A stretch of 23,329 bases of DNA from positions 1 to 23,329 of IMG/VR virus record IMGVR_UViG_3300037189_001403; one strand, given 5' to 3'. A program made the position numbers and the translations under genes. Under the pieces are notes generated by a model. That model searched no databases. It was not told the origin of the DNA and was given only the letters and a program-made list of their open reading frames with translations. Shown one piece after another: positions 2,139 through 21,239 of this stretch (positions are counted from its first letter, which is position 1; the number at the start of each line of letters is the position of its first letter). Origin of the DNA: a virus.

Positions 2139-5100
2139 ATGGCAGAACTAGAGGAAGACTTATCACAATCATTGGACAACCAGTCTCCTGGTAATGGAGA
2201 CGGTATCTATACATATCCTGGAAAAAAAAATACATACTACCAAAAGAAGGATGGTAATTGGTATAAGAAAGTTGGAAACTCTGACTATCAAAAGATTCAA
2301 TCTGGAGACGTTGAAAGTAGGGTAGAGCTTCTTGAAAAGAACGCAGTTCCTTTTGAGATAAAATCTAACATAATCCCAAAGCTTCCAAAAAACATTGCTG
2401 GTGCAGATCTTAGCGTAAACGAAATCGTTGAAAAAGCTAAAGATGTTAAGCTGCCTCCAAAGATTAAGATAGAGAAAGAGAACGATGTATTTGTATGGAA
2501 GGAGTACGATCCAGAGTCTCCAGAAGCAGACGACTCTATGTACAAGGTAATTACAAATCCTAAGAGAGTAAACGAGCTAAACAAGAAGTACAAGAATAAA
2601 GCATCTACGAGTCCACTTGAGATGATTTATACTGGATTTCCTAACAGGGAAGACACAGAGTATAAGGTAAGTAGTGACAATTTATGGCAGAAAAAAGAGC
2701 CAGGTTCTGAATACTTCTACACAGTATCGAATCCAGAGTCAATAAAATATCTGAACAATCATTTCAAACAAAATGCCGACATACTTGACGAAAAAAAATC
2801 AAAAGAGATTGTTGGACAAAACAACTACATAAGAGACTTTAACGCAAGGCTGACAAATATAAATTCAGATCTAATAGGTAAGGATACAGACGATGTATTA
2901 TCTAACTTACAGTTTTCATTTCCTGAGTTTAAATTTGAGAGAAACGGATCTTCAGGTCTAAGGGTATACAATCCTAAAGATAAAAACGATACAAACATAT
3001 CACTAGATAACTGGTTTAGTAGTGATGATAAACTAAACGCTGAGAAGTTAAGGGCATTCTTAAAGGAAAACGTGCTGTCTAATACCAGTTCATCATATAA
3101 TAATTGGATTCAGTCTCAAGCAGTTTTAGAAGGAAAAATATCAAAGGCTGTATTAAAAGAGGACAACGGCGTAGTAACTAAAGATATTGCTGATGCTACA
3201 AATGTTGATCGTACAGTATTAAACGAACAAGTTAGAAGAGACCTAGGGGCAATGTCAAATGTATTGTTCCCTAAAGAGGCAGAGAAAATAAAAACTGCCG
3301 AAAAACAGTTTATTAATTCGTATTCAGACGCAATCAAGAATACTTATTCAAGGGTAAAAGACAAGTCTGAAGACGAGAAGAATGCTGCATTTGCTGCTAT
3401 TAAAACAGAGGACGTAAATGACAGAATTGTTTTTGCTGTCAATAAATTTGGGGACGAAGTAAAGGACAAGACCAATGACTTTGTTAAGGAACAAAAAGCA
3501 TTTAATGCTTACATACAAGACATAAATGAAAAGGTAAAGTCTGGGGAGATTTCTAAGGAAGACTATGATGCAAACTACAAGAAGTATATTAACGGCAAGG
3601 TAGAAGAGCTGAACCTAAAGTCATCAGATCTACAGACAGACTTAAAAACTTTAAACTCTTCACAGTTTGGTGTTAATAAGTCTATAGCTGGAAACTATTT
3701 GTTAAACGAAAAGCAAGGGACATTTGTTGGTGGTTTAACAAGGAGCGTTGTTCAAGGTGTTCTTGACCTTCCGTTCTACGTTGCAGGAGCAACTAAAAAA
3801 GAAAAGAAAGAATTTGTTGATGGAATAATTAATTCTGGTACTACCGAGGAGTACATGAACTCAGACGAAAGATGGGACATAACAAAGGCAGCATTCCAAA
3901 TGACAAGATCATTGTCAGCAATGGCAGCAGGGGCAGCGTTTGGTGGACCAGCAGGGACAATTGGTAGGTATGCTACATTGTATGCAATGTCTTACAACGA
4001 GATGAAGGACGACCTTGATGCCGTAGATATAAGCAACGAGGACAAGGTGCTTATGTCATCTGCATATGGACTTGTTGGATCAGTTTTAGAGAATTTCGGT
4101 ATAGGATATCTTTTGGGTAAGTCTGCACTGAAAGTTGGAGCCACAAACTGGATACTCAAAACAGCCTTCTCTGGTATTCCAAAGGGAGCCAGCAAGGAAT
4201 TCATAGAGGCTCAGATAATGAACAGCACAAAGATGTATATTTCCAAGATGGCTGTAACAGGTGCTGGGAGTTCTCTTGTTGAAGGTGCTACAGAGGCAAG
4301 TCAAGCAGCTGTTCAAGTCGGTATCAAAGAGGTATACGATGAAATGAAAAAGACTGACTACTTTAACAATAAAAGTTCTTGGCAAATATTAGGAGATATT
4401 GGATACAATGGGTATATGGGATCTCTTGGTGCTGGTATCGTTGAGACAGTGCAGCAGTCAGGAGAGGTACTTAATAGAGGCAAAAACGCATTTGTTAACA
4501 AGGATCAAATGAAGCTGTTGATAAAGTCAGCAAAGCTGAACGGCATTGATCAGGCATTACTTTCAAACTTAAAGGCAAGCATACTTAATGGAAAGATTTC
4601 AACAGTCGAGGCAAAAGAGATTGTCAGATCGTTCCAAGATATAAAAGGAAAGATAAACTCTATGCCTGACGAAATGTCTGTAGACAAGAAGTCTGTGGCA
4701 CTAGACCTAATGGTTGAGAGAGACAACTTAAATAAAAAGATTGAGGGCAAGGAGCCTACCCTTGTTGTAAAAGAAAAGGCCAGGATAGATGAGATTAATA
4801 ATCAATTAAAAAATGTAGACAATGCCGTACAAGAGCCAAGCACAGAGGAAATTCTTCAACGCCAACCAGAAACAACTGGAGAAGCAGGGGGTGAACGTGG
4901 AGGAGTGGAACAAGTCGTCCAAGGGGAAGAAGTTGCCCAAGAAGGTGGCGAGCAAGCCACTGCCCAAAAAGAAATAACTCCTGGATCTACTGCTAAAATC
5001 GCTGGTGTAGATATTGTATATCCTACAGAATCACAGGCCGAAGAAAGAAAAGCATTTAGATCTACAACTGAATACGTTGAGAATGCATCTAAAGATCTTC

Positions 5101-8100
5101 CATTAGAGGACGTTGAGTCACTATCAAAAGAACTTGAAGGAGATTTTGGCTTACTAACTGCTGATAACCCAATGGCTCAACCTCTTACCGAGGAAGAGAA
5201 CAAACAGCTTAGTCAAAAGGCTGAGGAGTGGTTAATATCAAGAGGTTACAAGCCTAGACGTGTTACTGGTAAGTACGAACAGGCAGAGAACTCTTTCTTT
5301 GTTCCAAACCTAACAAGGCAAGATGCGATTGAGTTTGCTAAAGAGTTCAACCAAGACTCTGTAGCACACTCTGACGGCATGGTATACCAGAACGGATCAA
5401 TAAATCCAAGGGTAAAACAAAATGACGACCTAAGCTTTACAGAGGGCTATAGCCCTGACTCTAACTTGGTTTCTGTAGTAAATACAAAGGATGGACTAAA
5501 GACATTCTCTATTGGATATAACTTTGAAGAGAAGGTCAATCCTGAGCCACAACCTACTGTAGTTAAAGAAACTGCTACACCTACATTTGTTCCAGAGACC
5601 AGTCAGACTGTTACTGAGAGAATCAATAAGGAGACAGATACAAAAAGAAAGAAAGTTTTTACTGCCGTTCAGAAAGTATTGTCTGCTATTCCTAACTCAC
5701 GAATTATATTGCACGACAACACTGATGCATTTGTTGCTGGTGTTGCTAAGTCTGCCAATATAACAAATGACCAGGCTATATCTCAAGGTGTTCAAGACAA
5801 CAGAGGTTCATATGTTAATGGTGACATTCATATAAACTTAGAAAAGGCTGGTGTGTCTACAGTATTTCACGAGGCGTTCCATGACCTATTGTCAAAGAAA
5901 GGATTTGAGTCTGGCGCATTGTTAGAAATGGCAAAAGGACTTAAGTCAGTTATATCTGACAAAGGATTGAAGGCTAGGCTTGATAAATTTGTCTCTAACT
6001 ATGAGCAAGGAGAAAGAGCTGAGGAGTATACTACTGAGCTTGGGGCCATTATGTCCGAGGCACAGAAAGAACTTACAACAACCAAGTGGCAACAGTTCAA
6101 GACATTGATAAATAACATCGGTAAAAAACTTGGCATTCCTGTTGTTTTTGCTGGTGCTGCGACTGCACAAGACGCTGTTGACTTTATGAACTCAATGGCT
6201 GGTAAGATTGGAAGAGGTGAGCAGATTGAGGTTGGTGATTTATCTAAAGTTGTTCCATCTAAAACAGATAAATATGGAAACTTAATAAAACCTTCAGAAT
6301 CATCAATAAAAAATATAAAAAGTCAAAAAGAAAAAATAGTAGATAATGCAAAGTCAAATGTAATAGAGGGCAAAACTGTAAGTACTAGACTTCCTAAAAA
6401 GGATGATATTCACTCTACTAGAGACTATATAGTAAGTATGAAATCATTAGAAGCAGAAGCATCTAAAGATAAAAAAATACAAGATCAATATATAAAAATA
6501 GCAAAAGAAATATCTTCATACGGTATATCAAAAATAAAAAATGTAGAAACTTTTGATGATGCCAAGAAAGTAGTAAATGATTTTAAGAATTCTGTAAAGT
6601 CTAATTTAAAATGGTTATATAATTCATTTGGTAATGATGTAAGAGACATATCAAAGTTATGGTATGATGGAGCAAACATTATTTGTAATAATATAGCTAC
6701 TAAATATAATTATTCCTTAGAACAAGTATCTGGAGTAATGGCCGTACTAAGTCCTCAGATGGATTGGTTTAGAAATTTATCACTAGGGGAAAGAGTAATA
6801 GATATTTACACTAATCAGCAGAATTCTATTTTTGATTCTAAAATGATAGATTATGTTAGTAACGCTACATCTGGTACTGGTAAAAATAAGGTTCCATTAT
6901 TCAAAGATTCTAAAGAAATAATTTCAAGAGTAAAGAATAAAAAACTATCAGAACTAAACAATAAAGATAAAGCATATTTTATTAGAGTATTTGATGAGGT
7001 ATATAATTCAAGAGAATATAATAATATATCACCTAATGGAGAAATAAATGGATTAGTTAGAAAATCTGATGGATCTCCTGGAGCTTGTGGATGGGGAGCA
7101 TTTCCTACTATAGAAAAATCAATATCAATACTTCAAAATGGATCTATTGAAAATATATCTTCTAATCTTGGTAATATGCATAAGGTTAGAAATTTCTTTA
7201 ACAATATATCTAATCCAAATGACCCAGATGCAGTTACTATAGATACTCATGCAGTAGCTGCTGGATTACTTTTACCATTGAGTGGAAGTTCAAAACAAGT
7301 ACTATATAATTTTGGTGGTGCAGGAAATGTAAATACTGGTATGACTGGGACATACCCAGTATATGCAGATGCTTATAGAGAACTAGCAAAAGAACTTGGA
7401 TTACTTCCAAGAGAAGTTCAAAGTATAACTTGGGAAGCTGTAAGAGGATTATTTAAAGCGACATTTAAGTCAAACAAAAATAATGAATTAAATATAAATA
7501 AAGTATGGGATGATTATAGTTCTGGATCTATATCTTTAGATGAGGTTCATACTAAAATAGAAGATATTGCTGGAGGAATAAGTAAACCAGTATGGTTTGA
7601 ATATATGGCTGATGGAGATAAAATATCAATGGATGAAAATTCAGCAGCATTAGATCAATCTAATCTTGACAATGAGTCAGAACAACCATCCAATGCCAAA
7701 AAAATCAAAGCTCAAAAAACAGAACCTGTTGCTGGAAACAAACTATTTAACGAGCCGTTAAAAGATGCTGAGACAATAGCCAAGTCGTACATGAAGTCTA
7801 TCGGAATGGAATACGTTCCTGTGGAAAAGATAAATAAGCTAGACGAAAATCTATCCAAAAGAATAGCCGATGCATACGACAAAATGAAAAACGATCCTAA
7901 CGATCCAGATGTCAAGAAGGCATACGAGGCTATGGCCAAGGAGACGTTAGATCAGTATGACGCAATTGTATCAAAGGGATACAAAGTAGAGATAAACAAT
8001 GACGAGCCATACTCTTCTTCTGAGGATATGATAAGTGATCTAAAAGACAACAAGAGAATGAAGATATTCTCTACAGAGTCTGGATTTGGAGATGAGCCTA

Positions 8101-11100
8101 TCACAGAGCAGCAGAGAAAAGAAAATGTATTGTTAACAGACTCTGGAAGAAAGGATGCTAACGGAGAGACTCTATTAGTCAATGATGTTTTTAGATTTGT
8201 ACATGACTTCTTTGGTCACGCTAAACTAGGAAATAGTTTTGGTCCAATAGGAGAGGAAAATGCTTGGAGAGTTCACGCTGTCATGTATTCTCCAGAGGCC
8301 AGAAAGGCTATGACATCTGAAACAAGAGGTCAGAACAGTTGGGTTAATTTTAGCGGAGTTAATGACGCTGTATTTAAGAAGAGAGACAAGGCAAGAGAGC
8401 TTCGTAAACAAGGTAAGATAGCAGAGGCAGACCAAATGGTCGGAGAGGTATACGAAGATATGAAATTTGCCGATCAAAAGGTAGGATTGCTTCCAGAGTT
8501 TGCCGTTGAAGAAGGGTCTCCATCAAAAATCAAAGCACAGAAACAATCCAAGGAGGATGCAATTCAAAGTGCCAAGGACATACACGAAAAGTCATTTAAA
8601 AGATTTAAAGACGAAAAAAGAGCCATAGCAAACGCTATCAATAATCTTGAAAAGTCAGACTGGTATAAAAATGCTGACGACACTCAGAGAGAGCAGGCAG
8701 TAGTAGAGGTAAAGCAATCTCTTGGCGTAAAAATAAAGAGAGCTCCATCTGTTGCCAAGGTAATGGGCAAGACTAAGCAGACTGCTGTTGTTTCAGATAT
8801 AGCTGCTGCAATTCGTGATCAGGTAAAGCTACAAGCACGATCATCAAGAGAGACAGCCAAGACTATTAACGAGAAAAGAAAAGAGCTTGGAGAGGCTATC
8901 AAGCAGGTTGTAAATAGCTACAAAGGCAAGATAACTGACAAACAGCTAAACGCCATCAACAAAAGGATTGCAAACGTGAATCTATTCAACCAAGAGATGG
9001 TGGACAGAGTAGTAGACTACGTTGAAAAGGTGATGAACAATGCAGACTACGCAAGAAAACTAAGCGATGCATTTGCAGAAAGAAAGGCCATCAAAAGAAT
9101 GATGAAGTCTGGAAACCAAGCCGAAACAGTTGCCATTGCTAGAGAATTCACAATCATCGATCCATCAATGGTTGAAGACATTGACGCATACCTAGATGTT
9201 GCATCAAAGATAAGAGCAAGCGTAAAGACATCTAGAAAATTAAAAGGAACAGTCTCTCTAAAGGAGATGGCAAACTTCCAAGATGTGTACGGATACATAA
9301 AGCCAGAGATCGATAGACAAGAGCAAATGATGAAAAATATGCTTTTGGCCGAGTATAAAGATTTAACAGATAATGGAACGATCTCAAATAAAATGAGCCT
9401 TGACGATATAAATAAAATCATCAAACTAGTTGTCGACAATCAAGACGAAAACAAAGTTATTGAAAACGAAGAGAAGGCAAGAGACTTTTTAAATCAAAAA
9501 CTAGAGTCTATAAAAAGTACTATTTTTCATATTTTAAAATATGGAACACAGCCATTTACTGGAGAATCTGTGGTCATGAGCGACAGAATTAGGTCAATCG
9601 TTAATAATATCTTAAAGTCAGATCTCAACGAGATGTCTACAAAACAAATGATTCAAATGGCAGACTCATTAAATAACTTTATTGAGAACGGAGCCATTGG
9701 TGGACTTGAAGATGCATTTAAAATAATTGAAGGCCAAAGAAACATTAAGACCCTAGTTGAAAAAGGAGTAAAGGCCAGACCACTTAAATTGTATTTTTCT
9801 AAAAAATTAGGAGATATTGCTTCGTATGAAGTAGCGTCTCTTACAGAACTATTCAATAGAATGTTTGTAGGTGTAACAAAAGGGTTAGACGTGCTAGAAA
9901 AGTCTGGATTTGCAGATGTAATTCTTGGGGCTAACAAGGCAAGAAGAGCAGTAAAAGATATACAAGAGAGATACGTACAACAATTTAAAAATATAAAAAA
10001 CTTTTTTGATGTTGAGCAAGCATACGAGAGAGGTATACTATCATTTTTGTATAGAAATGTTATCGGATCAGAATTAGAGATGAGTCAAGAGTTTAATCGC
10101 AGGGTAGACATGTTACTAGAGAGTCTTGAGACACTTAAAAATGGCGACTCGAAAGAACGAAAGATGGCTAAAGTGTACGAGAGTTTATTTGAAAAGCTAG
10201 ATATTAAGTCTAGAGACCTTGAAAAAATAACATCCAACGCAACTCCACACAATATGGAAGCTGTTAACTGGTGGATAAATGAATGGTCATCTCACTATGA
10301 CAATCTATCAGAGGTGTCAAAATCTGTGTACAATATGATACTAGGAAAAGACTTCAACTACACTCCAGACAGATATAAAATGACGGCAGAAGGATCTGCA
10401 ACTAAGACTATATCATCTGATCTTGTTGAAAGAAACTCATCATTTCTAATAAATACAGATTCGTACACAGACAAAAAGGAGTCTGGAGTTATGATCGCAT
10501 CGGTTCACCCTGACGTTCTTCCAAAAGGAAGATACGTAAGCCTTGACTTTGATGTTAATAACATCGAATCACTAACTGGTGCCCTTGTAGATATAGAAAC
10601 TGCTGGAGCAATTAGACAGGTAGACGCTTTCTTTAATTCTAATGAAATAAAAAAATTGATTCCAACGGTTGAGGATAGAAACATACTCATTCCAAGAATA
10701 AATAGATACATAAGAAGATCTAAAAATAAACTTGTAGTTCCTAGTGACGTATTTAGAAAAATTGACGATGCTGCCAATACAGTCGCAGCAGTTGGATCAA
10801 CATTGGCCATGGGGGGAATCTTCCAGTCAATAAAACAATCCATACCAGTTGTGGTTAGTACAGCAATAAATACAGGATCAAACTTTAAACTATATGCTGG
10901 TAAATCATTTAACGATTGGTTAAATACTACTGGAGCAACTGTATCAAATCGTGGCCAAGAATCTGTGACTGCTGTTGAGAGTGCCAACAAGAAAATACAA
11001 TCGTTCAATGGTAACTTTGACAAGGCAGTTCAAACGGTTAAGGGTTTAACACAGTGGCAACTAAAAACATTCTTGTCTAGGCCAGATGTCTTGGTGGCTA

Positions 11101-12434
11101 GGTCAGCATTTAAGTCTTACTACACCCAGTACATGAAGCAGAACACAAGTCTCTTTAAAAACGAAAGTATTGACTGGTCAACATTAAATGAAAAGATAAA
11201 ATCATTAGGACTAGAAGAGGTAAATAAGAAAGCAATAATATATGCAGATGTAATGGTATCTAGGCAGCAGAATATATCTGACGAAAGGCTTGCTGGTGAG
11301 CTACTTACGTCTGAAGACTCTTTAAGAAAGTTGCTCAGAAAAGTAGTATTTCCATTTGCATCGTTTAGTATAAATCAAAGAGCTAGACTTGTTGCTGACA
11401 TAAACACACTATATGTAAACTATAAGAATGTGTCTTCAGAAGATAGGGCCATCGCAATAAAATCAATCGCAGGCACACTCGCAGAGCAAGGTGTATTCCA
11501 AATGATTAATTTCGCATTAGGAATGCTACTATACGAAGCAGCTGCTGCACTTTCAGACAACGATGAAGATGACGAGGAATGGAAAAAAAGAATGCAAAAC
11601 GCAACCAAGTATCCACTAAAATCATTTGTCGCAGATCTAGCATCTCCAAATCCAGTAGCAGATGACGCTGTAATATGGACAGCAGATAAGCTACTTGATA
11701 TGTTTGGTAAACCTAAAAAGTCTGAGATAGATCAAGCCGTAGCTGATGAAAACGAAATGTTGTTACTAATGGACAAAGATCCAATGACAGAAAAACAAGA
11801 AAGAAATTTCAGAGAAGAGTTTGTAAAAGAAAACACGTATCAACTGTCATATAACTTTACAAATGGAGAAGAAGGAAAGTACGGTATGATTTCAATAGCT
11901 CCTGATCAGTATGCTAAAATAATGAAAAACTATGAGATGGCAGAAAATGGCACATTTACAAATGAGTACATGGGCAAAGAGACGACTAAGTACTTGACAG
12001 ATAAGGACAAAGCTATAGCCAAGTCTGTGTTTTATGCACTAGAGATGCCATTTACCACTGGAGTTGGTCTAAAAGAGATGGGTCAAGTTGCCAACAAGAC
12101 ATACTCAATCATTAAGAAGAGAGGACTAACAGAAGATCAGTACGAGATATATAAATCATTCAAAAAAGAATACAAGAAAGAGCCAAACACTTACGAATTG
12201 AAAATGATTAAGTCTGGAAAGTCATATGAAAATATTTCTGACGAAATAAACTTTATCGATCAGCAAGGAGGGTTAAATACCAAGCAAGGTATAGAGTACT
12301 CAAAGCTATTTGACAAGACAGGATTTGTAACAAAAGATCAGTTCGAAAAAATTTCTAAGGGAATGAAGTACGAGGACGTAATAAAAACTTCAAAGAAGAC
12401 AGGTATTACTGAGCCACCATTATTTCAAGACTAA
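2139..12434 (+). CDS. Giant polyvalent internal virion protein (3431 aa)
   Basis: This one unbroken ORF covers about 44% of the window. Visible order: three divergent Y/W/K-rich repeats (residues 23-66, 108-153, 172-211); a charged helical region; a hydrophobic Gly/Ala-rich stretch (about 528-775), possibly membrane-active; a low-complexity E/G/Q linker (about 900-950); a zincin-like domain with HEAFH at 1244-1248 and a downstream Glu-rich helix near 1295-1300; an inserted AT-rich domain (about 1391-1850); a domain with HDFFGHA (2022-2028), ENAWRVH (2040-2046) and ETRGQNSWVNF (2061-2071); long helical/coiled-coil regions (2140-2870); hydrophobic segments at 2882-2914 and 3112-3140; an acidic patch and a charged tail. 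Mosaic giant proteins of this kind are known as polyvalent proteins in phages and conjugative elements and are thought to enter the host with DNA. Last in a virion triplet, it probably acts in DNA ejection and early takeover (inference). The ATG is one base after the preceding stop. Confidence 0.85.
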   Translation: MAELEEDLSQSLDNQSPGNGDGIYTYPGKKNTYYQKKDGNWYKKVGNSDYQKIQSGDVESRVELLEKNAVPFEIKSNIIPKLPKNIAGADLSVNEIVEKAKDVKLPPKIKIEKENDVFVWKEYDPESPEADDSMYKVITNPKRVNELNKKYKNKASTSPLEMIYTGFPNREDTEYKVSSDNLWQKKEPGSEYFYTVSNPESIKYLNNHFKQNADILDEKKSKEIVGQNNYIRDFNARLTNINSDLIGKDTDDVLSNLQFSFPEFKFERNGSSGLRVYNPKDKNDTNISLDNWFSSDDKLNAEKLRAFLKENVLSNTSSSYNNWIQSQAVLEGKISKAVLKEDNGVVTKDIADATNVDRTVLNEQVRRDLGAMSNVLFPKEAEKIKTAEKQFINSYSDAIKNTYSRVKDKSEDEKNAAFAAIKTEDVNDRIVFAVNKFGDEVKDKTNDFVKEQKAFNAYIQDINEKVKSGEISKEDYDANYKKYINGKVEELNLKSSDLQTDLKTLNSSQFGVNKSIAGNYLLNEKQGTFVGGLTRSVVQGVLDLPFYVAGATKKEKKEFVDGIINSGTTEEYMNSDERWDITKAAFQMTRSLSAMAAGAAFGGPAGTIGRYATLYAMSYNEMKDDLDAVDISNEDKVLMSSAYGLVGSVLENFGIGYLLGKSALKVGATNWILKTAFSGIPKGASKEFIEAQIMNSTKMYISKMAVTGAGSSLVEGATEASQAAVQVGIKEVYDEMKKTDYFNNKSSWQILGDIGYNGYMGSLGAGIVETVQQSGEVLNRGKNAFVNKDQMKLLIKSAKLNGIDQALLSNLKASILNGKISTVEAKEIVRSFQDIKGKINSMPDEMSVDKKSVALDLMVERDNLNKKIEGKEPTLVVKEKARIDEINNQLKNVDNAVQEPSTEEILQRQPETTGEAGGERGGVEQVVQGEEVAQEGGEQATAQKEITPGSTAKIAGVDIVYPTESQAEERKAFRSTTEYVENASKDLPLEDVESLSKELEGDFGLLTADNPMAQPLTEEENKQLSQKAEEWLISRGYKPRRVTGKYEQAENSFFVPNLTRQDAIEFAKEFNQDSVAHSDGMVYQNGSINPRVKQNDDLSFTEGYSPDSNLVSVVNTKDGLKTFSIGYNFEEKVNPEPQPTVVKETATPTFVPETSQTVTERINKETDTKRKKVFTAVQKVLSAIPNSRIILHDNTDAFVAGVAKSANITNDQAISQGVQDNRGSYVNGDIHINLEKAGVSTVFHEAFHDLLSKKGFESGALLEMAKGLKSVISDKGLKARLDKFVSNYEQGERAEEYTTELGAIMSEAQKELTTTKWQQFKTLINNIGKKLGIPVVFAGAATAQDAVDFMNSMAGKIGRGEQIEVGDLSKVVPSKTDKYGNLIKPSESSIKNIKSQKEKIVDNAKSNVIEGKTVSTRLPKKDDIHSTRDYIVSMKSLEAEASKDKKIQDQYIKIAKEISSYGISKIKNVETFDDAKKVVNDFKNSVKSNLKWLYNSFGNDVRDISKLWYDGANIICNNIATKYNYSLEQVSGVMAVLSPQMDWFRNLSLGERVIDIYTNQQNSIFDSKMIDYVSNATSGTGKNKVPLFKDSKEIISRVKNKKLSELNNKDKAYFIRVFDEVYNSREYNNISPNGEINGLVRKSDGSPGACGWGAFPTIEKSISILQNGSIENISSNLGNMHKVRNFFNNISNPNDPDAVTIDTHAVAAGLLLPLSGSSKQVLYNFGGAGNVNTGMTGTYPVYADAYRELAKELGLLPREVQSITWEAVRGLFKATFKSNKNNELNINKVWDDYSSGSISLDEVHTKIEDIAGGISKPVWFEYMADGDKISMDENSAALDQSNLDNESEQPSNAKKIKAQKTEPVAGNKLFNEPLKDAETIAKSYMKSIGMEYVPVEKINKLDENLSKRIADAYDKMKNDPNDPDVKKAYEAMAKETLDQYDAIVSKGYKVEINNDEPYSSSEDMISDLKDNKRMKIFSTESGFGDEPITEQQRKENVLLTDSGRKDANGETLLVNDVFRFVHDFFGHAKLGNSFGPIGEENAWRVHAVMYSPEARKAMTSETRGQNSWVNFSGVNDAVFKKRDKARELRKQGKIAEADQMVGEVYEDMKFADQKVGLLPEFAVEEGSPSKIKAQKQSKEDAIQSAKDIHEKSFKRFKDEKRAIANAINNLEKSDWYKNADDTQREQAVVEVKQSLGVKIKRAPSVAKVMGKTKQTAVVSDIAAAIRDQVKLQARSSRETAKTINEKRKELGEAIKQVVNSYKGKITDKQLNAINKRIANVNLFNQEMVDRVVDYVEKVMNNADYARKLSDAFAERKAIKRMMKSGNQAETVAIAREFTIIDPSMVEDIDAYLDVASKIRASVKTSRKLKGTVSLKEMANFQDVYGYIKPEIDRQEQMMKNMLLAEYKDLTDNGTISNKMSLDDINKIIKLVVDNQDENKVIENEEKARDFLNQKLESIKSTIFHILKYGTQPFTGESVVMSDRIRSIVNNILKSDLNEMSTKQMIQMADSLNNFIENGAIGGLEDAFKIIEGQRNIKTLVEKGVKARPLKLYFSKKLGDIASYEVASLTELFNRMFVGVTKGLDVLEKSGFADVILGANKARRAVKDIQERYVQQFKNIKNFFDVEQAYERGILSFLYRNVIGSELEMSQEFNRRVDMLLESLETLKNGDSKERKMAKVYESLFEKLDIKSRDLEKITSNATPHNMEAVNWWINEWSSHYDNLSEVSKSVYNMILGKDFNYTPDRYKMTAEGSATKTISSDLVERNSSFLINTDSYTDKKESGVMIASVHPDVLPKGRYVSLDFDVNNIESLTGALVDIETAGAIRQVDAFFNSNEIKKLIPTVEDRNILIPRINRYIRRSKNKLVVPSDVFRKIDDAANTVAAVGSTLAMGGIFQSIKQSIPVVVSTAINTGSNFKLYAGKSFNDWLNTTGATVSNRGQESVTAVESANKKIQSFNGNFDKAVQTVKGLTQWQLKTFLSRPDVLVARSAFKSYYTQYMKQNTSLFKNESIDWSTLNEKIKSLGLEEVNKKAIIYADVMVSRQQNISDERLAGELLTSEDSLRKLLRKVVFPFASFSINQRARLVADINTLYVNYKNVSSEDRAIAIKSIAGTLAEQGVFQMINFALGMLLYEAAAALSDNDEDDEEWKKRMQNATKYPLKSFVADLASPNPVADDAVIWTADKLLDMFGKPKKSEIDQAVADENEMLLLMDKDPMTEKQERNFREEFVKENTYQLSYNFTNGEEGKYGMISIAPDQYAKIMKNYEMAENGTFTNEYMGKETTKYLTDKDKAIAKSVFYALEMPFTTGVGLKEMGQVANKTYSIIKKRGLTEDQYEIYKSFKKEYKKEPNTYELKMIKSGKSYENISDEINFIDQQGGLNTKQGIEYSKLFDKTGFVTKDQFEKISKGMKYEDVIKTSKKTGITEPPLFQD
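6290..7690 (+). other. AT-rich inserted domain inside the giant gene (about residues 1385-1851)
   Basis: The reading frame is continuous but base and codon use change. ATA, AAA, TTA and GAT codons dominate here, while the flanks use more GAC, AAG and CTN. The encoded segment is compact and has conserved-looking blocks: GVMAVLSPQMDWFRN (1532-1546), GACGWGAF (1648-1655) and VTIDTHAVAAGLL (1699-1711). The LSP-x-x-x-W-x-x-N and VTIDTHA blocks recall a family found in other phages (DUF7178-like, from memory). The IDTHA block also resembles the catalytic-Asp loop of HhH-GPD DNA glycosylases; that link is inference. Similar short linker motifs flank the segment, which suggests a swappable cargo module acquired after the rest of the gene. 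Confidence 0.55.
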
Positions 12435-19461: not shown

Positions 19462-19680
19462 TTACCCCTTATTATTAATTGATTTGTTAAAGGTTTCGTT
19501 GTAGTATTGTTCTGCATCAGTTGGATTTCTTTCTATTATTGATAACTTACAATCGTACCAAGTTTTTATAATCTGATCCTTTTCCATCTCTTTGGCTTTT
19601 TCAATAATTTCTTGTACCCATTTAGGGGGTTCATTCAAAGTTAATTCTTCAATCAACCACTCTACTGCTGTTTGTTTCAT
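19462..19680 (-). CDS. MKQTAVEWL-family small protein, intact copy (72 aa)
   Basis: I choose ATG 19680 (MKQTAVEWLIEELTLN) over the longer open frame reaching 19776. The MKQTAVEWL start is shared with the neighbouring truncated copy, and the extra upstream residues are low-complexity and encoded by an A/T-rich gap. The protein is helical, with a central IIEKAKEMEKDQII segment and a C-terminal DAEQYYNETFNKS, features of a small-protein family frequent in Bacteroidetes phages and of unknown function. The 30-nt stretch covering its start codon recurs exactly at 19796-19825, and a 21-nt stretch encoding AKEMEK recurs at 19892-19912 in the 71-aa gene. The cluster therefore arose by duplication. Confidence 0.75.
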   Translation of the reverse strand: MKQTAVEWLIEELTLNEPPKWVQEIIEKAKEMEKDQIIKTWYDCKLSIIERNPTDAEQYYNETFNKSINNKG

Positions 19681-19683
19681 ATT
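19654..19683. repeat. 30-bp direct repeat, copy 1
   Basis: Identical over 30 nt to 19796-19825. It covers the first codons (MKQTAVEWL) of the 72-aa gene and the 3 bases upstream of its ATG. Confidence 0.9.
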
Positions 19684-19762: not shown

Positions 19763-19822
19763 TTAAAATTTGTCAAGTTTTATAAACTCTTGTTCCAACC
19801 ACTCTACTGCTGTTTGTTTCAT
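19763..19822 (-). pseudogene. Truncated MKQTAVEWL-family copy (19 aa)
   Basis: ATG 19822 opens MKQTAVEWLEQEFIKLDKF and stops at TAA 19765-19763. The first nine residues equal those of the intact copy downstream, and the DNA is identical over 30 nt. The open frame then ends, where family members normally continue for 50 or more residues. Its ATG overlaps the TGA of the preceding 71-aa gene (ATGA), so it is probably still translated. Reading it as a duplication remnant is the simplest interpretation; a short leader peptide is the alternative. Confidence 0.6.
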
Positions 19823-19825
19823 ATT
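19796..19825. repeat. 30-bp direct repeat, copy 2
   Basis: Identical to 19654-19683. It covers the start of the 19-aa truncated copy and the last codon of the 71-aa gene. Confidence 0.9.
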
Positions 19826-20034: not shown

Positions 20035-20396
20035 CTTAATAAGTTTAATATTTCCATTCGTTCCTCCAGCGTTAACTTCTTTGGCAACACATACTCTTCT
20101 TTGTTTTCTAACCTGCATCTCTCTACGTGCTCCCATAATGACTGATCGTCATAACAAATAGGTTTTCCGTCATTAGTGGCTTGATCATCTGCACCATCAG
20201 GATATCTGTCGTATAGATACCATGAGATCCATTCCTCACCATCTTTGCCAAAGTATACACTCAACATCGTTGTAATTACGTGAGCAGAGTCATCGGTAAA
20301 GTTAACCAAGTCCAAGCCTAAGCTGTATAAATCGTTGAGTTTTTTTTCTTGATCCCTTAGCTTGTCTAAAATGTATATAAATACTTCCTGTGTCAT
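20031..20396 (-). CDS. Hypothetical phage protein (121 aa)
   Basis: A mostly helical N-terminus (FIYILDKLRDQEKKLNDLY) is followed by an acidic, aromatic centre (YFGKDGEEWISWYLYDRYPDG, about 69-88) and a charged C-terminus. The ISWYLYDR-type centre recurs in small uncharacterised phage proteins as I recall them, but no biochemical role is known to me. ATGA overlaps link it to both neighbours: its ATG to the stop of the 131-aa gene and its TGA to the start of the 71-aa gene. The three are therefore translated from one message. Confidence 0.68.
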   Translation of the reverse strand: MTQEVFIYILDKLRDQEKKLNDLYSLGLDLVNFTDDSAHVITTMLSVYFGKDGEEWISWYLYDRYPDGADDQATNDGKPICYDDQSLWEHVERCRLENKEEYVLPKKLTLEERMEILNLLR

Positions 20397-20788
20397 TTGT
20401 CCAGTTTTTTAAGTAATAAACTTGACCTGTAGTCTATCTCTTTCCTAATTAAATCAAGTTGCCAATCAGGACCACCGTAATCAAGTACGGCCTCTAGGTA
20501 GTCATCGTCCATATCGCATATCGCAATCCAAGATAATGGCTGATCGCCATCCTTTCCACGACTGCCCCTTGTGGCGTGCTTTCTCACAATCATAAAATCA
20601 TCGTCTGTGTATAGTGTAAATAATTTTATCTTTCTCATGTCTTTTGCACCATACCTTAGATAGGCTGTACCTCCATCAACCACAGCATTGTTTGGGCATT
20701 CGCATGCTACATAATCATGCCTGTGATGACTTACTATTGTATTGTTGCACTCAAGGCATGTGACTGAGTTATATACTATTTGTTTCAT
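20393..20788 (-). CDS. DUF7695-like zinc-ribbon protein (131 aa)
   Basis: The N-terminus carries CLEC (11-14), HHRHD (21-25) and CEC (29-31), then VDGGTAYLRYGAKD. This is a likely zinc-binding CxxC / H-rich / CxC knuckle joined to a DGG-x-x-YLR-x-G block. The pattern matches what I recall of phage DUF7695 proteins. The C-terminal half is acidic (DMDDDYLEAVLD) and ends in a basic helix. Zinc binding is inferred from the motif; the target is unknown. It is the first gene after the tRNA-like element on the minus strand and overlaps the next gene by 4 nt. Confidence 0.65.
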   Translation of the reverse strand: MKQIVYNSVTCLECNNTIVSHHRHDYVACECPNNAVVDGGTAYLRYGAKDMRKIKLFTLYTDDDFMIVRKHATRGSRGKDGDQPLSWIAICDMDDDYLEAVLDYGGPDWQLDLIRKEIDYRSSLLLKKLDK

Positions 20789-20810
20789 TGTTCTTGTTTT
20801 TAAAGTTAGT

Positions 20811-20894
20811 AGTCAGGACAGGATTCGAACCTGTACTAAACCTGGTATACACCATATTAAATTAGGAACGTGTTACCAATTACACCACCTGACT
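20811..20894 (-). tRNA. tRNA-like gene with abnormal anticodon region
   Basis: Read on the minus strand, a 7-bp acceptor stem is perfect (AGTCAGG 20894-20888 with CCTGACT 20817-20811). The D arm is good (GTGT, loop AATTGGTA, ACAC). The T arm is perfect (ACAGG, TTCGAAT, CCTGT). Total length is 84 nt, with no encoded CCA. The 34 nt between D and T arms do not form a normal 5-bp stem and 7-nt loop. Instead I see a small hairpin (TGGT-GTAT-ACCA, 20854-20843) and weak CC/GG pairing around it. I therefore give no amino acid. It may be a type II tRNA with a poor anticodon stem, a tRNA with an insertion of about 12 nt in the anticodon loop, or a decayed or decoy tRNA. Confidence 0.75.
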
Positions 20895-20930: not shown

Positions 20931-21239
20931 TTAGAATGGGAGGTCCTCCTCCTTTTTATCTTCGACCTCTCCTGATGGATCGATCCTCCATGCCTCCAAA
21001 TTATTGAAGTACCTGCCGTTGTACTCACGACCACGAATGTCAAACGACACCTCGACAGACTGATTAACAGAAAACTTGTCCAACACGTCAACGTTCTTCT
21101 GCGTTAGCTGAAACGCTATGTCCTGTGGATAATTCTCGTGAGGAACGTTCAACACGAACTCTCTCTTTGTAAACTTGTCGCTTACCTGCACCGATGGGTT
21201 TATAACTTTCAAAACCCCCTTCATTTTAAAACTGCTCAT
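20931..21239 (-). CDS. DUF3127-like OB-fold single-strand DNA-binding protein
   Basis: A 102-aa protein. The core (GVLKVINPSVQVSDKFTKREF, then VSFDIRGREYNGRYFNNLEAWRI) matches the DUF3127 pattern common in Bacteroidetes, an OB-fold SSB-like family, with REYNGRYFNNLEAWRI as its clearest block. The C-terminus is acidic and ends EEDLPF, closely like the D-D-D-x-PF tip that bacterial SSB uses to dock helicases and nucleases. I infer that it coats single-stranded DNA during phage replication and recruits partners. Its ATG overlaps the stop of the nuclease gene (ATGA), fitting a recombination cassette. Confidence 0.85.
   Translation of the reverse strand: MSSFKMKGVLKVINPSVQVSDKFTKREFVLNVPHENYPQDIAFQLTQKNVDVLDKFSVNQSVEVSFDIRGREYNGRYFNNLEAWRIDPSGEVEDKKEEDLPF

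Follow-up and report, generated by a model that had tools for sequence, protein, structure and literature searches.

The window, a 23,329-nt stretch that comprises positions 1 to 23,329 of IMG/VR virus record IMGVR_UViG_3300037189_001403, carries on its minus strand a gene for a tRNA-shaped RNA located between two protein genes (table 1). The primase and the SSB-like protein encoded in the window match the Pfam families BT4734-like and DUF3127. Both are taken here to be Bacteroidota families, and the host is therefore presumed to belong to the Bacteroidota. A single open reading frame of 3431 codons, with DUF3293 and DUF7178 domains, extends over positions 2139–12434; its product is perhaps a large virion or injected protein. 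Near the RNA, a 41-nt stretch is present in two copies that are 88% identical (19643–19683 and 19785–19825). This repeat was rejected as a separate element: the copies are the starts of small paralogous genes, and the stretch has relatives (MKQTAVEWL-like) in several other phages. In 11 of 11 relatives of the window's phage (L002, L003 and L005–L013), the exonuclease is followed downstream by a gene for tRNA-Arg(TCT); the window has none.

Table 1. Features of the tRNA-shaped RNA and its neighbouring genes in the window.
Feature	Position	Strand	Evidence
Downstream gene, 131 aa, function unassigned, same orientation as the RNA	20393..20788	−	
A73 and C74	20809..20810	−	Invariant in 17/17 sequences, alignment A1 columns 85–86
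Whole tRNA-shaped RNA, 86 nt to C74	20809..20894	−	ARAGORN tRNA-???; Rfam RF00005 47.6 bits; covariance model R1 110.2 bits
Acceptor stem 3' strand CCTGACT	20811..20817	−	Pair counts on A1
T arm ACAGG-TTCGAAT-CCTGT	20818..20834	−	4/5 pairs change on both sides
4-nt variable loop TAGT	20835..20838	−	A15 and T60 (=48) invariant in A1
Anticodon-stem 3' strand AGGTT	20839..20843	−	Pair counts on A1
Loop hairpin GGU-GUAU-ACC (consensus GGU-GNAU-RCC)	20844..20853	−	Pair counts; RNAalifold
10-nt 5' bulge AAUUUAAUAU, invariant	20854..20863	−	A1 columns 32–41; relaxed pattern search
Anticodon-stem 5' strand TTCCT, CCT invariant	20864..20868	−	Pair counts on A1
D arm GTGT-AATTGGTA-ACAC; A14, A15, G18 and G19 present in window	20870..20885	−	Alignment A1
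Acceptor stem 5' strand AGTCAGG	20888..20894	−	All 7 pairs change on both sides, 17 distinct sequences
Upstream gene, single-strand DNA binding protein (DUF3127)	20931..21239	−	PHROG 4932 1.5e-24; PF11325 2.2e-26

The outer parts of this RNA are those of a tRNA. Pairing is perfect in the acceptor stem (seven of seven pairs, 20894–20888 with 20817–20811), the D stem (GTGT/ACAC, four of four) and the T stem (five of five), and the last base of the variable loop can presumably make the A15–U48 Levitt pair. The Rfam tRNA model recognizes the RNA with an E value of 1.6e-7 and a score of 47.6 bits, above the gathering score of 29, skipping a 28-nt stretch in the middle of the alignment; no Rfam family other than RF00005 matches at this position (E of 5 or better). 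The initial annotation had described intact acceptor, D and T arms without a normal anticodon arm. This description is borne out: the 34-nt centre (20868–20835) contains no 17-nt arm with a 5-bp stem (four of five pairs allowed), a 7-nt loop and U33. The span given there, 20811–20894, covers the arms correctly but ends too early, leaving out the discriminator A at 20810 and the C that follows at 20809. Neither outcome named there as refuting it was seen. An ordinary anticodon stem-loop is given neither by a covariance fold nor by the arm search; the related phages examined hold no normal tRNA with the same centre; and ARAGORN returns tRNA-???, with no assignable anticodon and no tmRNA call. 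The window RNA is thus a tRNA shell in which the anticodon arm is swapped for a nearly invariant module made up of a CCU/AGG stem, a 10-nt bulge and a GGU-GNAU-RCC hairpin; the stem 27–31/52–56 encloses an insert of 20 nt.

The same module recurs in other virus records. A 17-nt word from it, CCTAATTTAATATGGTG, is present in 24 IMG/VR stretches: 21 are tRNA-shaped RNAs of the same build and three are unrelated places without a shell. Chance is excluded for the window RNA because it is conserved in these 21 other records. They reduce to 16 distinct sequences, which form alignment A1 together with the window (17 sequences). The core consensus is NNCCUAAUUUAAUAUGGUGNAURCCAGGNN, with 24 of the 26 core letters invariant. 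When nine of the 26 core positions were left free, the pattern found 21 stretches, all of the core family, and seven of the nine free positions were invariant. Dropping the CCT/AGG clamp added two matches only, both due to chance and in a non-tRNA context. A pattern anchored in the D arm, which fixes just the CC of the stem within the core, found 16 records, 15 of them with the core and the sixteenth (L061) with a different insert. At L061 (8159–8242), the D arm and acceptor of the window RNA are combined with an insert of CTAATA plus the hairpin CGAC-AATTT-GTCG, likewise a layout of bulge plus stacked hairpin.

Compensatory changes keep the acceptor and T arms paired, and the D arm is likewise maintained. 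In A1 (n = 17), changes on both sides that retain pairing are seen at seven of seven acceptor pairs and at four of five pairs of the T stem. Overall, 96.3% of pair cells are paired, against 35–43% in slid controls, and the number of cells with both sides changed is 52, compared with 12.9 in shuffles, none of 500 shuffles being as high. This covariation rejects a tRNA pseudogene. The view of the initial annotation that this is not a random pseudogene is upheld by the paired cells and by the invariance of the core. Within the core, pairs 29–54, 30–53 and 31–52 never vary. Pair 28–55 is UG, UA or CG in 12 of 17 sequences and unpaired in five, pair 27–56 is GC in nine and unpaired in eight, the window included, and the closing pair of the hairpin, U44–R49, is UA in 14 and UG in three. 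The core stem and the hairpin hardly vary, so that little covariation backs their pairing. RNAalifold recovers the acceptor, D and T arms and the loop hairpin unaided, but lengthens this hairpin by U41–A52 in place of the U31–A52 closure. The energy fold of the window sequence alone (−22.4 kcal/mol, z −1.4, with 18 of 200 shuffles equally good) favours pairing of the D-arm 3' strand with the centre; the tRNA fold is held on account of covariation, not energy.

Judged as decoding tRNAs, the core RNAs have a 7-bp acceptor, a D stem and a T arm with a TTCRANY loop, and an anticodon arm (5-bp stem, 7-nt loop, U33) is found in 0 of 17. Their D arm resembles that of tRNA-Gln. D-loop columns 17–18 are deleted in four of the 17, which weakens the case for a strict L-shape; G18–G19 is present in the window and 12 others. 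All 17 have A73–C74, which most ordinary tRNA genes in these records have too. The covariance model R1, built from A1, was searched against 42 locus sources and subsequently against 23 records. Over the 42 sources, members score at least 100 bits, L061 scores 73.5 and every other tRNA 57.5 or less; the scores of members hold by construction, because members or near-identical copies built the model.

Many phages carry the core module, and both its shell and its genomic surroundings differ among them. It is combined with nine different acceptor 5' strands. At one other locus, L060, the core RNA adjoins a homologue of the window's 131-aa protein gene (76% identity over 123 residues). The acceptors there and in the window are GGCCTTA and AGTCAGG, respectively, and the T stems are unlike, whereas the 26-letter core differs only at variable base N46. 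When nine window proteins were compared with 24 loci, matches were restricted to L006, L007, L056 and L058, L055, and L060; most core carriers, within the stretches compared, thus show no kinship to the window's phage. The nearest open reading frames are co-directional with the RNA in 12 of 15 loci (read by eye, one locus with one side only). Among 35 loci with relatives of the window's exonuclease, an intact core RNA is present only in L007, and model R1 finds a core RNA in one of the 23 such records searched. L006 is near-identical to L007 around the locus; its core RNA, at 3668–3720, is cut by a deletion of the loop and the 3' half. The RNA is therefore dispensable there, unless the deletion is an assembly error.

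RNAs with the same shell and other inserts are numerous. A word from the 3' half is present in at least 120 stretches; over all loci compared, the exact word gives at least 225 matches, with at least 179 distinct sequences. A script that allows two mismatches finds, among the matches listed, at least 207 distinct RNAs in 125 loci with a median length of 101 nt, a set that includes tandem or misjoined cases (lengths to 260 nt and one mixed cluster of eight). The inserts among the matches listed fall into 160 clusters, 24 with more than one member, and the window's type is the largest. A broader shell finder, with only two matches in eight loci, was left out of these counts. The sister RNAs share the shell AGTCAGG...CAGG-TTCRANT-CCTGTCCTGACT-A and mostly have a tRNA-Leu-like D arm, which is common to ordinary tRNA-Leu. 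Their inserts are very diverse, from about 20 to over 140 nt, and have no constant exon bases. Several lie in arrays with little coding sequence and with ordinary tRNAs interspersed. A scan anchored in the D arm, from which 24 of 126 sites without a matching 3' half were dropped, yields 94 distinct RNAs among the matches listed; 50 have acceptor AGTCAGG, and other acceptors occur too, each complementary to its own 3' strand. Sorting of the remaining 44 by eye gave 19 RNAs with unusual centres, two of these doubtful, and 25 that look like ordinary tRNAs. One insert type is housed in two shells with different acceptors (L276 versus L173 and L222), and phages related to the window carry shell RNAs too (G036, G038 and the record of L017 and L244).

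Some inserts are themselves paired. Stems are compensated round a constant loop, as in GTTGAA-GCTGGGTAA-TTCAAC versus GAGCAA-GCTGGGTAA-TTGCTC, and 19 doubly compensated insert pairs were counted in 23 clusters, against a mean of 4.6 and a maximum of 9 in 40 column shuffles. Insert stability is barely above that of shuffles (mean z −0.57; downstream control −0.36) and was set aside as weak proof of structure. Some inserts of the shell RNAs at L146, L131 and L094 contain a second T-arm-like hairpin (e.g. GTTGGTTCGATCCCAAC), like a tRNA nested in a tRNA. Together the sister RNAs point to a large, uncharted class.

A known molecule of comparable build is tmRNA (SsrA), in which tRNA acceptor, D-like and T parts are retained and the anticodon arm is replaced by another domain. 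The window RNA has the same tRNA-like ends and swapped arm. With 86 nt and a 34-nt insert, however, it has no room for a tag frame and pseudoknots, and pair 3–70 is U–A, C–G or A–U in the family (U–A in the window) rather than the G–U of tRNA-Ala identity. A tmRNA was rejected on the absence of G3–U70, of a tag-encoding insert and of an ARAGORN tmRNA call. Alterations in the anticodon loop are also described for phage tRNAs that escape anticodon nucleases (van den Berg 2023, PMC10264068) and for those of a retron study (PMC11555353); according to the portion of the former available here, its tRNAs carry anticodon-loop mutations and decode, whereas the window RNA has no decoding loop. The Bacillus cereus pseudo-tRNA tRNAOther is a tRNA-like element without a translation function (PMC3399842). 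It is a single locus beside a genomic island, inside a longer RNA, and the accessible part of that paper describes no conserved family with a replaced loop. Rfam family freshwater-1 (RF02979) was matched within shell RNA arrays just below its gathering score of 72 (L093, 6124–6185, 70.3 bits; L126, 4124–4186, 70.1 bits). It is a 62-nt model of different sequence, and no tRNA shell is seen at either site. A text search of the literature, with most subscription journals and bioRxiv outside its coverage, found no description of tRNA-shell RNAs with replaced anticodon arms. Within the literature searched, these RNAs are rated as a new class, whose function we infer.

The window RNA is very probably non-decoding and under selection, with a functional loop; it is fairly probable that its processing is that of a tRNA and that it acts by way of this loop. 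The following course of events is proposed. (i) The RNA would be transcribed together with the neighbouring genes. (ii) RNase P and 3' processing would excise it, and CCA would be added as for a tRNA. (iii) The shell would supply maturation, stability and perhaps access to tRNA-binding proteins. (iv) The 20-nt loop would do the work by binding a putative target; it would be unable to change because the proposed target is so conserved. (v) This target would most plausibly be a host protein that acts on tRNA, such as a nuclease of a defence system or a factor of translation or tRNA processing; the RNA would then serve as a decoy or an inhibitor. (vi) The sister RNAs with other inserts would form a repertoire shaped by an arms race. 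A variable yet paired shell round a fixed loop is the pattern of a scaffold presenting a binding site. Both A73–C74 and the co-directional neighbours are consistent with an RNA that is matured like a tRNA out of a longer transcript. There is about an even chance that the proposal is right as a whole, as far as a loop that acts by binding a conserved target. Counter-defence would be the most natural reason for so diverse a repertoire of modules, and a decoy against tRNA-cutting host defences, suggested in the initial annotation, is possible. As the specific role of the window RNA, counter-defence is a tentative and rather doubtful proposal. A broader reading is conceivable, although the balance leans somewhat against it: phages, chiefly of Bacteroidota and mostly uncultivated, would use tRNA as a display scaffold, with shell RNAs numbering in the hundreds, frequently several to a genome, that the tRNA machinery of the host would mature and that would carry exchangeable structured modules for the binding of host factors. 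On the same guarded footing, the window's module would be the most widely conserved one seen, and the set an RNA arsenal with a role comparable to that of small anti-defence proteins.

An antisense or other regulatory small RNA is an unlikely alternative. Here the shell would give clean ends and stability, and the loop AAUUUAAUAUGGUG would pair with a host or phage transcript. The large, accessible, A/U-rich loop and its near-invariant letters would suit this role, and tRNAOther, in the available text a tRNA-like element inside a regulatory RNA (PMC3399842), would be a precedent. However, a scan of the genome_contigs collection (84,980 species) with the word CCTAATTTAATATGGTGNAT on both strands gave one stretch only, in a Methanobrevibacter record without tRNA context, and this match is chance. 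A long antisense target in bacterial genomes was rejected on this result; the target may be shorter. Complementarity of the core to E. coli rRNA is not in excess of that of its own shuffles (84 of 100 reach it), in a comparison confined to E. coli rRNA where the presumed host is of the Bacteroidota. Still less probable is an aminoacyl carrier, charged by the host, incapable of codon reading and used off the ribosome or to titrate a synthetase. It would explain why A73–C74, A14 and A15–U48 are retained, and the D arm of the sister RNAs is one common to ordinary tRNA-Leu. Bacterial LeuRS is largely indifferent to the anticodon. GlnRS normally requires it, which tells against charging of an RNA with a tRNA-Gln-like D arm, as does the D loop shortened in four of 17. 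Acceptors in nine versions, moreover, mean that there is no fixed acceptor identity.

The remaining alternatives are remote. The RNA might be an ordinary tRNA precursor whose small anticodon-loop intron is removed by an unnamed enzyme, which is very improbable. The insert lies within the anticodon stem at the usual place of introns, and 34 nt would divide into 21 and 13 nt; an insertion in the anticodon loop, another of the roles initially suggested, is thus right as to geometry, with a stem 27–31/52–56 round 20 nt. It does not hold as a spliceable intron. When one segment was cut out so that 17 nt and a variable loop of 4 or 5 nt remained, a stem with U33 arose in five of 17 sequences and never in the window, and the inserts of the sisters differ by over 100 nt in length without constant exon bases. 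A spliceable intron was accordingly rejected, as no splice yields a common normal anticodon arm. More improbable yet, and already contradicted, is a decaying tRNA gene or a mere punctuation signal for RNA processing with a jobless centre. Copies are patchy and one is partly deleted, and tRNA-like elements are able to cut polycistronic RNA. Yet no part is more conserved than the centre, whereas compensatory change is seen in the shell, which has also turned over at one syntenic place (window versus L060); the pure punctuation role put forward in the initial annotation cannot account for this conservation of the loop. Equally improbable is a shell that serves as a DNA recombination or integration site, with the inserts as passengers, like integron attC sites. 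Identical shell ends flank unlike inserts, arrays are formed and one insert type occurs in two shells. Against this stand the RNA-level compensatory changes in the shell and in some inserts, the retention of tRNA-specific D- and T-loop letters, and the variation of shells in sequence. A non-decoding RNA that acts through its loop remains the preferred reading.

BLAST of the typed family consensus against 50,697 phage records did not show the core among the matches listed. Searches of isolated phages with the family consensus, one sister RNA and sister arrays gave, among the matches listed, genes for homing endonucleases, ordinary tRNAs and some short pieces without explanation; plasmids gave no match. 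These negatives are weak evidence of absence, because shapes of this kind in pT24, cr4_1 and the 735-kb phage went unflagged by sequence BLAST. Tenacibaculum phage pT24, which is cultured, has two tRNA-Undet genes with an extra hairpin in the loop's place, the centre forming the continuous hairpin TTCG-C-GGGTA-TAT-TACCC-T-CGAA. In the human-gut crAss-like phage cr4_1, a tRNA-shaped match of 124 nt (38.6 bits) lacks annotation, and another of 80 nt falls below cut-off. A shell of 111 nt in the 735-kb phage LR756501 has the acceptor AGTTAAG. Judged by shape, these RNAs likely belong to the same class as the shell RNAs. Genes labelled 'tRNA-Undet', in pT24 and in a theta-ribozyme study that sets them aside, are tRNA-shaped with an unassignable anticodon, as is the window RNA; in the portion of that study available here they are an annotation left-over and not described as a class (PMC10879173). 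Because such genes are labelled 'undetermined' by tRNA finders, an entire class of phage RNA may have escaped notice. Should the loops bind defence or translation factors of the host, they would be ready-made, specific RNA ligands, and the reason why phages have so many genes of tRNA shape could be tested directly on this class. With two apparent members in the cultured phage pT24, the question is open to experiment. A different arrangement is seen in the 735-kb phage (LR756501.1, 207096–207213, L339): a tRNA-Arg-like RNA with a normal-looking TCT anticodon arm and an insertion of approximately 45 nt between the D arm and the anticodon stem.
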